Shown here in pieces: positions 20,220 through 23,780 of a stretch of DNA of 37,532 bases. A program made the position numbers and the translations under genes. Position 1 is the first letter of the stretch. Each line of letters opens with the position of its first letter. The notes beneath the pieces are model-generated. The model saw nothing but the letters and a program-made list of their open reading frames with translations. It did not search any database and had not been told where the DNA came from. Source of the DNA: an uncultured Pelagibacteraceae bacterium (lineage in GTDB: Bacteria > Pseudomonadota > Alphaproteobacteria > Pelagibacterales > Pelagibacteraceae); the NCBI GenBank assembly GCA_902570785.1, contig CACFZK010000010.1:1-37532 (forward strand), written 5' to 3'.

Positions 20220-21557
20220 ATGTTTAAGAAAGTCTTAATCGCGAATAGAGGTGAAATCGCCGTAAGAGTTATTAGAGCATGTAAAGAATGGGGAATAGGA
20301 ACTGTTGCTGTTCACTCCGATGTTGACTCTGACTCGATGCATGTCCGTTTAGCAGATGAAAGTGTTTGTATAGGCTCTCATGAACCAAGAAACAGCTATC
20401 TAAATATCCCTGCGATAATGTCGGCTGTTGATGTTACAGGAGCCCAAGCTATCCATCCGGGTTATGGTTTTTTATCTGAGAATTATAAATTTGCTGAAAT
20501 AGTTCAAAAACATGGAATAAAATTTATTGGTCCAGGCTCTGAAATTATTAAAAAGATGGGTGATAAAATCGAAGCAAAAAAAATCGCTAAAGAGAATGGT
20601 TTGCCAGTCATCGAAGGTTCTGATGGTGGCGTAAAAAATTCAAAAGATGCAAAAATAATTTGCAAAAATATAGGTTATCCAGTCTTAATAAAAGCTTCAG
20701 GAGGAGGTGGAGGAAAAGGAATGAAAATAGTAGAAGATGAGAATAAATTAGATGAACTATTCTCATTAGCTAGATTAGAAGCAAAGAAATATTTTGGAAA
20801 TGATGAAGTCTATATTGAAAAATATTTTAAAAACCCAAGACACATCGAAGTTCAAGTTTTGTCCGGAAAGAATAGAACAGTACATTTAAATGAAAGAGAT
20901 TGTTCGGTTCAAAGAAAACATCAGAAATTAATCGAAGAAACACCTAGTCCGGTTTTAGATGAAAAAACTAGATCAGATTTATTAAACAAAACAGTGAAAA
21001 TGGTCCAGGCAATAGGATATGAGGGTGCCGGTACTGTTGAATATATTTATGAAAATGGGAAATTTTATTTTCTTGAAATGAATACAAGGGTTCAAGTCGA
21101 GCATCCTGTTACTGAAGTTCAAACAGGTATAGATATTGTAAAAGAACAAATATGGATTGCACATTCAGGTGATACAGCTCTTAAACAAAATGATATTAGC
21201 GCTAGGGGCCATACAATAGAATGTAGAATCAATGCCGAGGATCCTTCTAAAGATTTTCAGCCTAGCCCTGGTATAATATCTGTGTGTCATCAACCATCGG
21301 GCTTTAGAACTAGAGTTGATGGTTCTATCTTTCAAGGTTGTAAAATTACACCCTATTACGACAGTTTGATTTGTAAATTAATTTGCAAAGGAAGAAATAG
21401 AACAGAAGCTATACAAAGAACTATGAGATCTCTCAATGAATTTGTAATTGATGGTATAATAACCACAATAGACCTACATAAAAAAATCCTTTCACATGAA
21501 AAATTCATTAGTTCAGATTTTGATACAAATTGGTTGAGTAAAGAGAAATTTTACTAA
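20220..21557 (+). CDS. accC: Biotin carboxylase of acetyl-CoA carboxylase
   Basis: A 445-residue ATP-grasp enzyme that carboxylates biotin on AccB. Landmarks: N-terminal 'KVLIANRGEIAVRVIRAC', 'AIHPGYGFLSEN', the glycine-rich ATP loop 'ASGGGGGKGMKIV', 'ERDCSVQRKHQKLIEE' and 'MNTRVQVEHPVTE' with the catalytic Glu and Arg. Length matches bacterial AccC. It is the last gene of the aroQ-accB-accC run. Confidence 0.97.
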   Translation: MFKKVLIANRGEIAVRVIRACKEWGIGTVAVHSDVDSDSMHVRLADESVCIGSHEPRNSYLNIPAIMSAVDVTGAQAIHPGYGFLSENYKFAEIVQKHGIKFIGPGSEIIKKMGDKIEAKKIAKENGLPVIEGSDGGVKNSKDAKIICKNIGYPVLIKASGGGGGKGMKIVEDENKLDELFSLARLEAKKYFGNDEVYIEKYFKNPRHIEVQVLSGKNRTVHLNERDCSVQRKHQKLIEETPSPVLDEKTRSDLLNKTVKMVQAIGYEGAGTVEYIYENGKFYFLEMNTRVQVEHPVTEVQTGIDIVKEQIWIAHSGDTALKQNDISARGHTIECRINAEDPSKDFQPSPGIISVCHQPSGFRTRVDGSIFQGCKITPYYDSLICKLICKGRNRTEAIQRTMRSLNEFVIDGIITTIDLHKKILSHEKFISSDFDTNWLSKEKFY

Positions 21558-21576
21558 TATAATTTAAATTGAAATA

Positions 21577-21604
21577 TTACTTTTTAAATGATAGTAAAAA
21601 GTAA
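21577..21604 (+). other. Perfect 9-bp AT-rich hairpin before the 27-residue protein
   Basis: TTACTTTTT at 21577-21585 and AAAAAGTAA at 21596-21604 pair perfectly around a 10-base loop. There is no U-run after it, so it is not a standard terminator. It ends 3 bases before the ATG of the small basic protein, where it could occlude or expose the start. Confidence 0.5.
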
Positions 21605-21607
21605 ATT

Positions 21608-21691
21608 ATGGGATATCCTAAAAAACACAGAGGAAGACGAAAAATCGGCTCAAAAAAAAGAAGAGCAAGAAAAAGAAATAAACGAAAGTAG
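21608..21691 (+). CDS. 27-residue very basic protein, possibly ribosome-associated
   Basis: A tiny reading frame of 27 residues starting Met-Gly-Tyr-Pro-Lys-Lys and ending Lys-Arg-Lys; about 17 residues are Lys or Arg and there is no acidic residue. Size and composition recall very small ribosomal proteins such as bTHX or the bacterial COX24/AURKAIP1-like proteins, but I see no convincing alignment to either. It starts 50 bases after accC and stops 11 bases before the next gene. In an AT-rich genome an unbroken run of CGA/AGA/GGA codons is unlikely by chance, which supports it being real. Confidence 0.5.
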   Translation: MGYPKKHRGRRKIGSKKRRARKRNKRK

Positions 21692-21702
21692 TCTAAAATT
21701 TA

Positions 21703-22404
21703 ATGGAATATAGAACTCAAATTAAAAAGTTGAGTTTATGGATATTTATAATTCCATTTATTGCAATTAACCTTTGCTTATTTATTTCGGTAAACTATGA
21801 AATTTTTGACAATACTTTTTTAAGTGTTGATCAAATTGGCAGATCTGGTCCAACATTTCCATACTTTGATGGAGGCGTGTCTATAAGCAGAACAGCAAGA
21901 ACTTATCCAACATTTCTAATTTTTAAACCTTCCATGTTTATAGCATCTGTGCTGCTAATTATATATTGGATAAAAACAAATAATTTGATTAATGCATATC
22001 AAAATAATGAAGCAGTAAATAATAAATTTAAAACATTCGGCATTCTTTCAGCAATTTTTTTAATAATACATTCAATATTACTTGGAGTTAAATTTGACTA
22101 TGATTTATATAAATTTTTTAGAAGATTTGTGTTATTAAGTTTTATTATTTTCGAAATAGTTGCACAGTCACTTTTAGTAATTAAATTTTATAAATTAAAG
22201 TCTATAATCATAAAAGACATCAATAATTATGTTTTAACTTTAAAAATAATTTTAGTTTCAATTCTAGTTGTTGTAGCAATATTCAGCTTGCCAATAGTTG
22301 TAACTAGCGGAAATGTTCACTTCAAACATGCATTAGAATGGAATTATTTTGTAGGTGTAATTCTATTTTATTTATTAACTTATCTGTTTTGGAAAAAAAA
22401 CTAA
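21703..22404 (+). CDS. Six-helix membrane protein, possibly Frag1/DRAM/Sfk1 family
   Basis: A 233-residue integral membrane protein. Hydrophobic helices fall at about 10-31, 72-90, 108-126, 134-160, 178-202 and 212-229. The loop after the first helix contains 'RSGPTFPYFDGG', and 'HFKHALEWNYF' precedes the last helix; this layout with a late His-x-x-x-Glu-Trp recalls the Frag1/DRAM/Sfk1 family, which is mostly uncharacterised in bacteria. The match is from memory of the pattern and only moderate. Its 3' end overlaps the U-tract of the convergent structured RNA terminator. Confidence 0.6.
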   Translation: MEYRTQIKKLSLWIFIIPFIAINLCLFISVNYEIFDNTFLSVDQIGRSGPTFPYFDGGVSISRTARTYPTFLIFKPSMFIASVLLIIYWIKTNNLINAYQNNEAVNNKFKTFGILSAIFLIIHSILLGVKFDYDLYKFFRRFVLLSFIIFEIVAQSLLVIKFYKLKSIIIKDINNYVLTLKIILVSILVVVAIFSLPIVVTSGNVHFKHALEWNYFVGVILFYLLTYLFWKKN

Positions 22405-22443: not shown

Positions 22444-22590
22444 TTTGGTTCGTCGTTTTAGGCGCTACCGCCGAACCTCCCGCTCTGCAATTTTAGCGCT
22501 ACTCTGCAGAACTTTCTGCCCGTTAAGCTTAAACCTCTCGGCCTTTCCTTAACTGGCCAGTTGAGAGTTGCCTCTCAATTCATTTCTATT
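22393..22590 (-). ncRNA. Structured small RNA of unknown family, about 195 nt
   Basis: A gap with strikingly higher GC than its surroundings that folds on the minus strand. Helices in RNA order: TTGAGAG-GCAA-CTCTCAA (22578-22561); an 11-pair helix between 22560-22548 and 22527-22516, enclosing a GAGA-loop hairpin (22546-22531); TCTGCA/TGCAGA (22510-22505 with 22489-22484); GGTTCG/CGAACC (22477-22472 with 22452-22447) enclosing GGCG-GTAG-CGCC; and a GAAA-loop terminator (22443-22405) followed by U8. The terminal stem pairs through G-U wobbles only if read on the minus strand, fixing the direction. A TATGAT -10 lies at 22598-22593. It lacks a tmRNA tag, the SRP RNA core and RNase P signatures. 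Confidence 0.65.
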
Positions 22591-22634: not shown

Positions 22635-23780
22635 TTATTGGGTTGTGAGTTGTGTGGATAATTTTTTATTAAGTGTTTTATCTATCCAGCCGCCCCCTAA
22701 TAATCTTTCTCCAAGATTATTTTTCGAATAGAAAACGCAAGCCTGCCCTGGTGAAATACCTTTCTCGTCTTCTGAAATATTTACTAATGCTTGATCTTTT
22801 TTAATTTCAACTTTTGATTTTAATAATTTTCCAGTAGATCTTACTTTAATATAAATTTCTTTTTCGAAGTTTTCTTTATTAGATAAAAGATTTAAATCTC
22901 TTAAATAAAGCTTGTTTATATTTAAATTATCTTGTGTTCCGACAATTATTGCATTTTTTTTTGCATTTATATCAACTACATATAAAGGTTCTTTACTTGA
23001 TATTTTTATCCCTTTTCTTTGGCCGATTGTAAAATTTATTATTCCTTCATGAAATCCCAGTTTTTTGCCCTCTAAATCTAATATTTCACCCTTTTGATAT
23101 GATTGAGGATTATATTTTTGAATTACTGACGCGTAATCACCATTAGGAACAAAACATATATCCTGGCTATCTGGTTTCTCTGCTACATTTAGATTTAATT
23201 TAGACGCAATTTTTCTAGTCTCTGTTTTATTTATTTTGCCAAGAGGAAATCTAAGGAAATCAAGTTGTTTTTGGGTTGTGCTGAATAAAAAATAACTTTG
23301 ATCACGCTCTTTGTCTTCTGCCCTGTACATTTGTCCCACACCGTTAAGTTCGTGCCTTAAAACATAATGACCAGTTACTAACGCATCTGCTTTTAAATCT
23401 TTTGCATATTTAAACAAATCTCTAAATTTTACAGTTTGATTACATTGAACACACGGTATTGGAGTTTCTCCAGCAGTGTAACTATTTATAAAGGAGTCTA
23501 TAACCTCTTTTTTGAATTTTTTTTGGTAATAAAGAATTTTGTGCTCTATATTTAAATTCTCTGAAACTCTTTTTGCATCAATAATATCTCTTCCAGCACA
23601 ACATTGTTTGCCTTTTGAAGAGCTTTTTATATCATCATATAATTTTAAAGTTATTCCAGTCACGTCATAACCCTCTTCTTTCATTAGACCAGCAACAACG
23701 GATGAGTCTACACCACCCGACATAGCGACTACAATTTTGGTATCTTTTGGCGACTTTTTTATACCTAGAGAGTTAATCAT
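22635..23780 (-). CDS. mnmA: tRNA-specific 2-thiouridylase MnmA
   Basis: A 381-residue enzyme that thiolates U34 of Lys, Glu and Gln tRNAs. The PP-loop '[12 protein letters not shown]' (about 19-30) activates the base with ATP; the catalytic cysteines are Cys113 (in '[10 protein letters not shown]') and Cys209 (in 'SQDICFV'); 'RDQSYFLF' and '[11 protein letters not shown]' are further family signatures. Sulfur would come ultimately from a cysteine desulfurase such as SufS. It is followed on the same strand by the structured RNA. Confidence 0.95.

Follow-up and report, generated by a model that had tools for sequence, protein, structure and literature searches.

The 37,532 nucleotides analysed here (the window) are contig C10 of a 25-contig assembly of 965,521 bp from an uncultured Pelagibacteraceae bacterium. 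Between accC and the gene for a membrane protein they contain an open reading frame of only 27 codons, which raises the question whether so short a frame is a gene and, if so, what its product does. The original prediction had described a Lys/Arg-rich protein of 27 residues without acidic residues, lying between these two neighbours, and both the composition and the position were borne out:

20220..21557, + strand: accC (biotin carboxylase), the upstream neighbour, assigned by profile match and locus comparison.
21608..21691, + strand: gene of a basic micro-protein of 27 residues, MGYPKKHRGRRKIGSKKRRARKRNKRK, plus TAG stop codon, 50 nt after accC; assigned by ORF, conservation and pN/pS.
21703..22404, + strand: membrane protein of 233 residues, the downstream neighbour, starting 11 nt after the stop of the micro-gene; Frag1 (Frag1/DRAM/Sfk1, PF10277) match with E 0.0066, below the cut-off.

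The N-terminal core of the micro-protein, MGYPKKHRGRRK-x-GS, is almost invariant; the K/R-rich stretch behind it is predicted to be helical. Sixteen of its 27 residues (59%) are Lys or Arg and none is Asp or Glu; the pI was computed as 12.0, a value that may be the ceiling of the program. Of the 198 ATG-started ORFs with at least 20 residues in the window, no other combines a K/R content of at least 50% with the absence of acidic residues. No ORF with these properties occurred in 30 mononucleotide shuffles of the window.

Selection on the micro-gene is strongly purifying. The synonymous/nonsynonymous analysis by which the original prediction could have been refuted clearly failed to do so, coding constraint being present at pN/pS = 0.063 within the genus (Nei-Gojobori proportions, 26 distinct sequences). 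Across all 148 distinct sequences of the bacterial set pN/pS is 0.130, with pS near saturation. All 28 other loci of the genus differ from the window by 3 to 15 nucleotides but merely by 0 to 3 amino acids, and random substitution resulted in as few amino-acid changes in at most 0.9% of the trials for each of these loci (P ≤ 0.009). A recount of the bacterial loci without demanding the core pattern gave 189 candidates, 188 of which match with E < 1e-8; L094 was left out of the locus set as a chance match, and some of the 188 fetched loci cover the same place twice. The 148 distinct micro-gene sequences from these loci encode only 19 proteins. Positions 1, 3–12, 14, 15, 18, 19 and 25 hold one residue throughout (148 of 148 sequences), in a set in which divergent members are under-represented because the loci were mostly fetched for best matches. 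Synonymous positions are variable in a first frame set limited to starts of the form M[GA]YPKKH[RK]GRRK, where part of the invariance is built in by this demand; L255, which starts with MSYPKKHRGRRKQGS..., lies outside the pattern.

The short length of the frame, and A-rich DNA in which AAA and AGA codons are common, would be compatible with a chance ORF in an AT-rich spacer or with DNA conserved for some other reason. Synonymous positions vary, however, while 13 of the first 15 codons specify a single residue throughout the 148 sequences (codon 2 does so in 146), and an overlapping frame of 41 residues is, in most of the other 28 loci of the genus, broken or without a start. These observations already refute the chance-ORF explanation, to which we assign practically no probability. 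The overlapping frame itself (21588–21713) was rejected as a gene, since it is not kept beyond the closest relatives. The frame at 21608–21691 is a real, free-standing and usually single-copy gene; its constraint and its distribution confirm that gene finders had missed a gene here.

A search of SAR11 genomes, which had been proposed as a check, found the frame in 29 of 31 genomes of the genus (the window's own counted) and in 255 of 298 genomes of the family. Within the genus the identity is 89–100% across all 27 residues, and no listed match has an internal stop. At a completeness of at least 90%, 128 of 140 family genomes carry the frame, whereas the remaining 12 gave no match for the micro-protein; one family match, in G140, is weak (E 7e-4). 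A sample of the order contained the frame in 241 of 298 genomes, those listed being all of the same family and largely the same as in the family count. A scan of named genomes gave at least 386 relatives, and the best 80 of these carry the titles Pelagibacteraceae, Pelagibacterales or Candidatus Pelagibacter with one exception, Alpha proteobacterium SCGC AAA288-N07.

For the Alphaproteobacteria, a single-sequence search yielded clear matches (E < 1e-4) in 4 of 143 genomes and a profile search in 13 of 385 genomes (E < 1e-11), the next best profile match having an E of 0.0014 and looking like noise. As noise we also treated 11 of the 15 single-sequence matches in the class (E 0.04–1) and 17 of the 30 profile matches (E 0.001–0.1). 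The clear matches belong to the window's own family (f1) and to the families f23, f30 and f142; none was found in the other alphaproteobacterial families sampled (385 genomes, profile search). In the order of genome G457, which includes f30 and f142, the micro-gene is present in 54 of 60 genomes and in all 20 near-complete ones. The small order of genome G450 (f23) has it in 6 of 6 genomes. In a phylum sample of 299 genomes the sole match was the window's own genome, but this sample tells little about other classes, because the 20 other genomes listed are all from the same class. The micro-gene belongs to the Pelagibacterales and two other alphaproteobacterial orders.

The order of G457 fits the HIMB59-type order. 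In the passages of PMC3815206 that concern its placement, HIMB59 is argued not to be a member of SAR11, so a gene shared by both either goes back to a common ancestor or was transferred. Whatever its function, the micro-gene is a near-universal SAR11 gene without a match in any protein library used, and a rare gene character that links SAR11 with the HIMB59-type order.

The neighbours of the micro-gene differ between lineages. In all 29 genus loci accC lies upstream, and in none of the compared loci of other genera (L031–L073). The membrane protein gene adjoins the micro-gene in the Pelagibacteraceae loci compared, with the exception of L071, and is not found beside it in the loci read from other orders. 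Judged by the look of the proteins, we take the neighbour in the other SAR11 genera read to be a divergent PLP-enzyme-like gene; the neighbours are presumably rpe-like and LysR-like genes in f142, an rpoH-like gene in f23 and a transporter-like gene in f30. Since the micro-gene is kept while its neighbours differ between lineages, it probably acts alone. None of the loci read shows a gene for a ribosomal protein next to it.

An IMES-2 RNA (RF02035) is located at 22445–22585 on the − strand, between the downstream membrane gene and an mnmA-like gene (22635–23780, − strand). It scores 160.7 bits against a gathering score of 54.7 and was found in 7 of 12 relatives' loci searched.

The region upstream of the ATG contains three elements that bear on expression:

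21534..21563, + strand: promoter-like site TTGAGT-18-TATAAT at the end of accC (10 of 12 bases), a rival to the following one; its use would put the hairpin into the mRNA.
21569..21597, + strand: predicted sigma-70-type promoter with TTGAAA (21569–21574), a 17-nt spacer ending in TG-A (21589–21591) and TAGTAA (21592–21597).
21577–21586 and 21595–21604, + strand: AT-rich inverted repeat TTACTTTTTA/TAAAAAGTAA, overlapping the spacer and the −10 of the predicted promoter.

An alignment of the genus upstream of the ATG has conserved TTGA and TGATA blocks, and the genus form of the predicted promoter is TTGA(T/A)A, a 17-nt spacer ending in TG-A and TATTAA or a similar hexamer. This element resembles a promoter whose extended −10 abuts the ATG, although the window's own copy has only 8 of the 12 consensus bases. 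The extended −10 layout (17-nt spacer, TG) is located 6–11 nt before the ATG in 25 of 29 genus loci, compared with 32 of 5800 mononucleotide shuffles and none of the 45 window ORFs of at least 100 residues. With the TG demand dropped, it is seen in 1021 of the shuffles and 7 of these ORFs. The predicted transcription start would lie 2–4 nt before the ATG, and a −10 in this position would produce a near-leaderless mRNA without a Shine-Dalgarno sequence in this genus. SD-like 4-mers are absent upstream of the micro-gene in all 29 genus loci. They are present in 91 of 95 other distinct Pelagibacteraceae upstream regions (L031–L055 and L154–L233, which may include a few of the window's genus from named contigs), typically as AAAGGAGG, and in 5 of the 45 window ORFs of at least 100 residues, a count that includes spurious ORFs. 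One conserved gene seems to have changed its mode of initiation between sister genera. Sites like the rival promoter were found once, against 2.3 expected from shuffles. Three of 29 genus loci have a site with at least 9 of 12 bases at a comparable distance, 44–46 nt before the ATG, so that the abutting promoter is the one favoured by conservation.

The hairpin described in the original prediction exists as a perfect inverted repeat ending 3 bases before the ATG, but its arms are 10 bp long and not 9. It was considered as an RNA element (attenuator or thermometer) that regulates the ORF in cis, a role for which such a perfect repeat at this distance speaks, together with the promoter-like site at 21534–21563. 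The comparison with the relatives, however, points the other way. Among the 29 genus loci, the same arms recur in only 4 of the 28 others, all close sisters, and there they are shortened to 8 bp; L022 and L027 have a repeat with other arms, of 11 or 8 bp, that ends 0–8 nt before the ATG, and the remaining 22 loci one of 0–7 bp. The upstream promoter-like site is likewise rarely kept, and most other Pelagibacteraceae loci have a Shine-Dalgarno sequence at this place. A repeat as long was obtained in 3% of mononucleotide shuffles, and 32 of 200 dinucleotide shuffles folded at least as well (z = −1.12). In an alignment of 21 loci 62.6% of the cells of the helix pair; the shuffled controls pair in 60.1% (36 of 500 reach the observed value), and sliding the partners by one column gives 59.3%. 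Both sides change in 5 of the 10 hairpin pairs, which 123 of 500 shuffles also reach. Being neither stable beyond chance nor conserved, and giving no pairing signal above the controls, a regulatory hairpin was rejected as very improbable. The hairpin is probably incidental.

In size and charge the micro-protein resembles several small ribosomal proteins. bS22 (mycobacteria, Cutibacterium, Bacteroidetes and Borrelia) and mS38 are described, in the relevant passages of PMC10618245 and PMC10085706, as a single basic (bent) helix and a lineage-specific extra of the ribosome. According to the passages of PMC10618245 on Borrelia, bS22 there has 61% K/R, was unannotated and was not detected by mass spectrometry. 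This case illustrates how a protein of this kind can be overlooked. The micro-protein also has about 30 residues, is roughly 60% K/R, can go unannotated and would form a single basic helix. An AlphaFold model of a phage relative of 31 residues is one helix (residues 8–30) with a mean pLDDT of 80.5 and a pTM of 0.36; for a K/R-rich peptide a modeled helix is weak evidence. eL41 (eS32, PF05162) is a basic, helical ribosomal peptide of 25 residues with similar size and charge, and bTHX of Thermus also has 27 residues, starts with MG and is very basic. The micro-protein is basic, helical by prediction and about 30 residues long, features that are not specific to bS22/COX24_C.

The original prediction had suggested a comparison with bTHX and bS22-like families, and profiles, shuffle test and hhalign agree that there is no detectable relationship. 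No entry of Pfam, NCBIfam, PHROG or PDB matches the micro-protein or its relatives. Ten members searched against Pfam hit no family, whereas controls of the same size were found with E ~4e-12 or better: bS22 of M. smegmatis with 46.2 bits (E 4e-12), eL41 with 46.3 bits and Thermus Thx with 64.6 bits. The micro-protein thus differs from bS22/COX24_C (PF08213) in having no Pfam or NCBIfam match. The Ribosomal_L41 profile did not match the micro-protein, and an hhalign alignment with bS22 spans 7 columns at 0.9% probability. The GYPKKHRG head is absent from the two bS22 sequences compared, and eL41 has no P/G/S head. In a shuffle test, four forms of the family were compared with two bS22s, eL41 and Thx (16 comparisons, composition-matched shuffles). 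No kinship was observed; the lowest P was 0.063 for the f142 form and eL41, weakly better than the shuffles. For the SAR11 form, P was 0.85 and 0.61 with the two bS22s, 0.50 with eL41 and 0.96 with Thx, the last score lying below the shuffled mean. The test has low power and excludes close kinship only, because it did not link bS22 and eL41 (P 0.12), which are called analogues in the passages of PMC10618245 that discuss them. Membership in Thx, COX24/bS22 or eL41 was rejected by sequence.

Profiles of two of these families also revealed no clear member among the alphaproteobacteria searched. The COX24 profile (PF08213) gave nothing above the cut-off in 143 alphaproteobacteria, the window's own genome included; its matches in 11 of the 143 genomes were all below the cut-off and treated as noise. 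The same holds for Thx (PF17070), whose matches in 78 of the 143 genomes (E 0.008–1) were all below the cut-off and counted as noise; no Thx match was obtained for the window's own genome, and none for G000, G038, G450 and G457.

Two scans identified 30 distinct viral contigs that encode M[G/A]YPKKH[R/K]GRRK[I/R]GS; since both looked for the core, its uniformity in phages is in part built in, and copies that diverge further would have escaped. After the 15-residue core the phage versions have their own tails, giving total lengths of 31–40 residues. By gene context the contigs fall into a first type (20), a second type (9) and one other. The gene in all 20 contigs of the first type shares one base with the stop of an upstream gene of 154 residues and precedes an ORF of 63 residues. 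A GroES-like motif occurs in 17 of these contigs, and matches to GroES, portal and major head proteins were obtained for L129, the member tested. The GroES-like gene of this GroES/capsid type (L129 and similar) lies ~250 nt downstream of the micro-protein gene. In the 9 contigs of the second type it is followed by an HNH-like gene; two members were tested, L132 with an endonuclease match and L141 with exonuclease and HNH matches. The remaining contig, L128, has a DNA polymerase. When the first 24 residues are compared, L132 and L137 (24 of 24) and L128 (23 of 24) come closest, among the bacterial forms, to that of f142. The other 9 of 12 phage representatives are nearest to the SAR11 or f30 forms (20–22 of 24).

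DNA searches reached HTVC023P-like and T7-like phages, and a third search had no match. The core was absent from small basic ORFs in the stretches of 5 named phages, which contain three other basic small ORFs. Three named phages have similar GroES DNA; in one of them, Pelagibacter phage HTVC023P, no peptide of this kind is encoded in the 6-kb stretch read, and the region before GroES was read as well. A tblastn search of phages and plasmids gave nothing and is probably uninformative, as low-complexity filtering was on. Other phages carry small host-like proteins as well, namely bS21 (pelagiphage HTVC008M) and bL12, from which the micro-protein differs in belonging to no known ribosomal family. 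In the parts of PMC6375957 that deal with these genes, bS21 of HTVC008M is reported to enter E. coli ribosomes, and phage-borne ribosomal protein genes are under purifying selection too.

Composition, conservation and phage copies fit RNA or ribosome binding. We consider the micro-protein to be, with somewhat better than even probability, a lineage-restricted small ribosomal (rRNA-binding) protein that is analogous to bS22 and eL41 and also carried by phages. This reading is favoured because size, charge, near-invariance and near-universality match bS22 and eL41, because no bS22 or Thx was found above the cut-off in the sets searched, and because a core common to hosts and to phages with different gene contexts points to a host ligand that both share, phage-borne ribosomal proteins being established in this host group. 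In the mechanism that we propose, the micro-protein of the window's genus would be made from its own promoter, with the −10 abutting the ATG, on a nearly leaderless mRNA. It would bind structured rRNA, its core fitting into a pocket of the rRNA and its basic helix following one of the grooves. The model for such binding is the h27/h44/h45 pocket of the small subunit, which is filled in this way by bS22 and eL41. Phages of at least two kinds encode the core with tails of their own, and their versions would presumably enter the host ribosome during infection like pelagiphage bS21. Several points count against a ribosomal protein: no sequence match to ribosomal proteins was found, the loci read have no ribosomal-gene neighbourhood, and 12 of 140 near-complete genomes lack a match. 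In addition, P4, G9, G14 and S15 would disturb a straight, eL41-like helix, and the position of the gene near head and packaging genes in the first phage type suits DNA binding too.

An RNA-binding assembly, hibernation or antitermination factor, which would bind the ribosome or RNA polymerase transiently instead of being a stoichiometric ribosomal protein, would account equally for conservation, distribution and phage copies. Such factors are also small and basic, and the second phage type has the gene beside nuclease genes. Twenty-seven residues, however, leave little room for a regulated factor, and a near-invariant core would better suit a fixed structural contact; we regard this explanation as unlikely. 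Still less likely, in our judgement, is a DNA-condensing, protamine- or nucleoid-like peptide used in phage packaging and kept by streamlined hosts. The K/R-rich sequence without acidic residues would agree with this role, as would the first phage type (20 of 30 contigs), whose tested member L129 has the portal, GroES and major head genes around the micro-gene. Non-specific DNA binding, on the other hand, does not need a near-invariant GYPKKHRGRRK-x-GS shared by three orders and several phage types (in the phages partly by construction), and the 9 contigs of the second type have the gene beside DNA-metabolism genes, as judged from L132 and L141.

If the ribosomal reading holds, one component may be missing from the ribosome models and proteomic databases of SAR11, which are among the ocean's most abundant bacteria, and the versions carried by phages would constitute a directly testable, phage-exchanged ribosomal micro-protein. 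The wider interpretation is more tentative, and we put it slightly below an even chance: an undescribed ribosomal protein of SAR11, common to the HIMB59-type order and one further order and not to the other alphaproteobacteria sampled, exchanged with phages that retune host ribosomes by a version of their own, and serving as a rare character for the disputed relationship of SAR11 and HIMB59 (shared descent or phage-borne transfer). The papers searched by full text contain none of MGYPKKH, GYPKKHRG and PKKHRGRRK and showed no mention of such a protein. According to the pertinent passages of PMC2704228, Meyer et al. (2009) removed, and list, Pelagibacter intergenic regions with conserved coding sequence, and the frame may be noted in that list.

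As a lead only, not counted as evidence because the sample is small and confounded by phylogeny, we compared the 16S rRNA of 8 full-length carriers with that of 5 non-carriers (L285–L297). In this small, confounded sample the columns that separate the carriers are 19, 442, 492, 776, 843, 844, 916 and 1432 (E. coli numbering, L310), together with two further columns in the flanks. The E. coli 16S rRNA did not serve as a filter; it matches the carriers at positions 19, 492 and 916.
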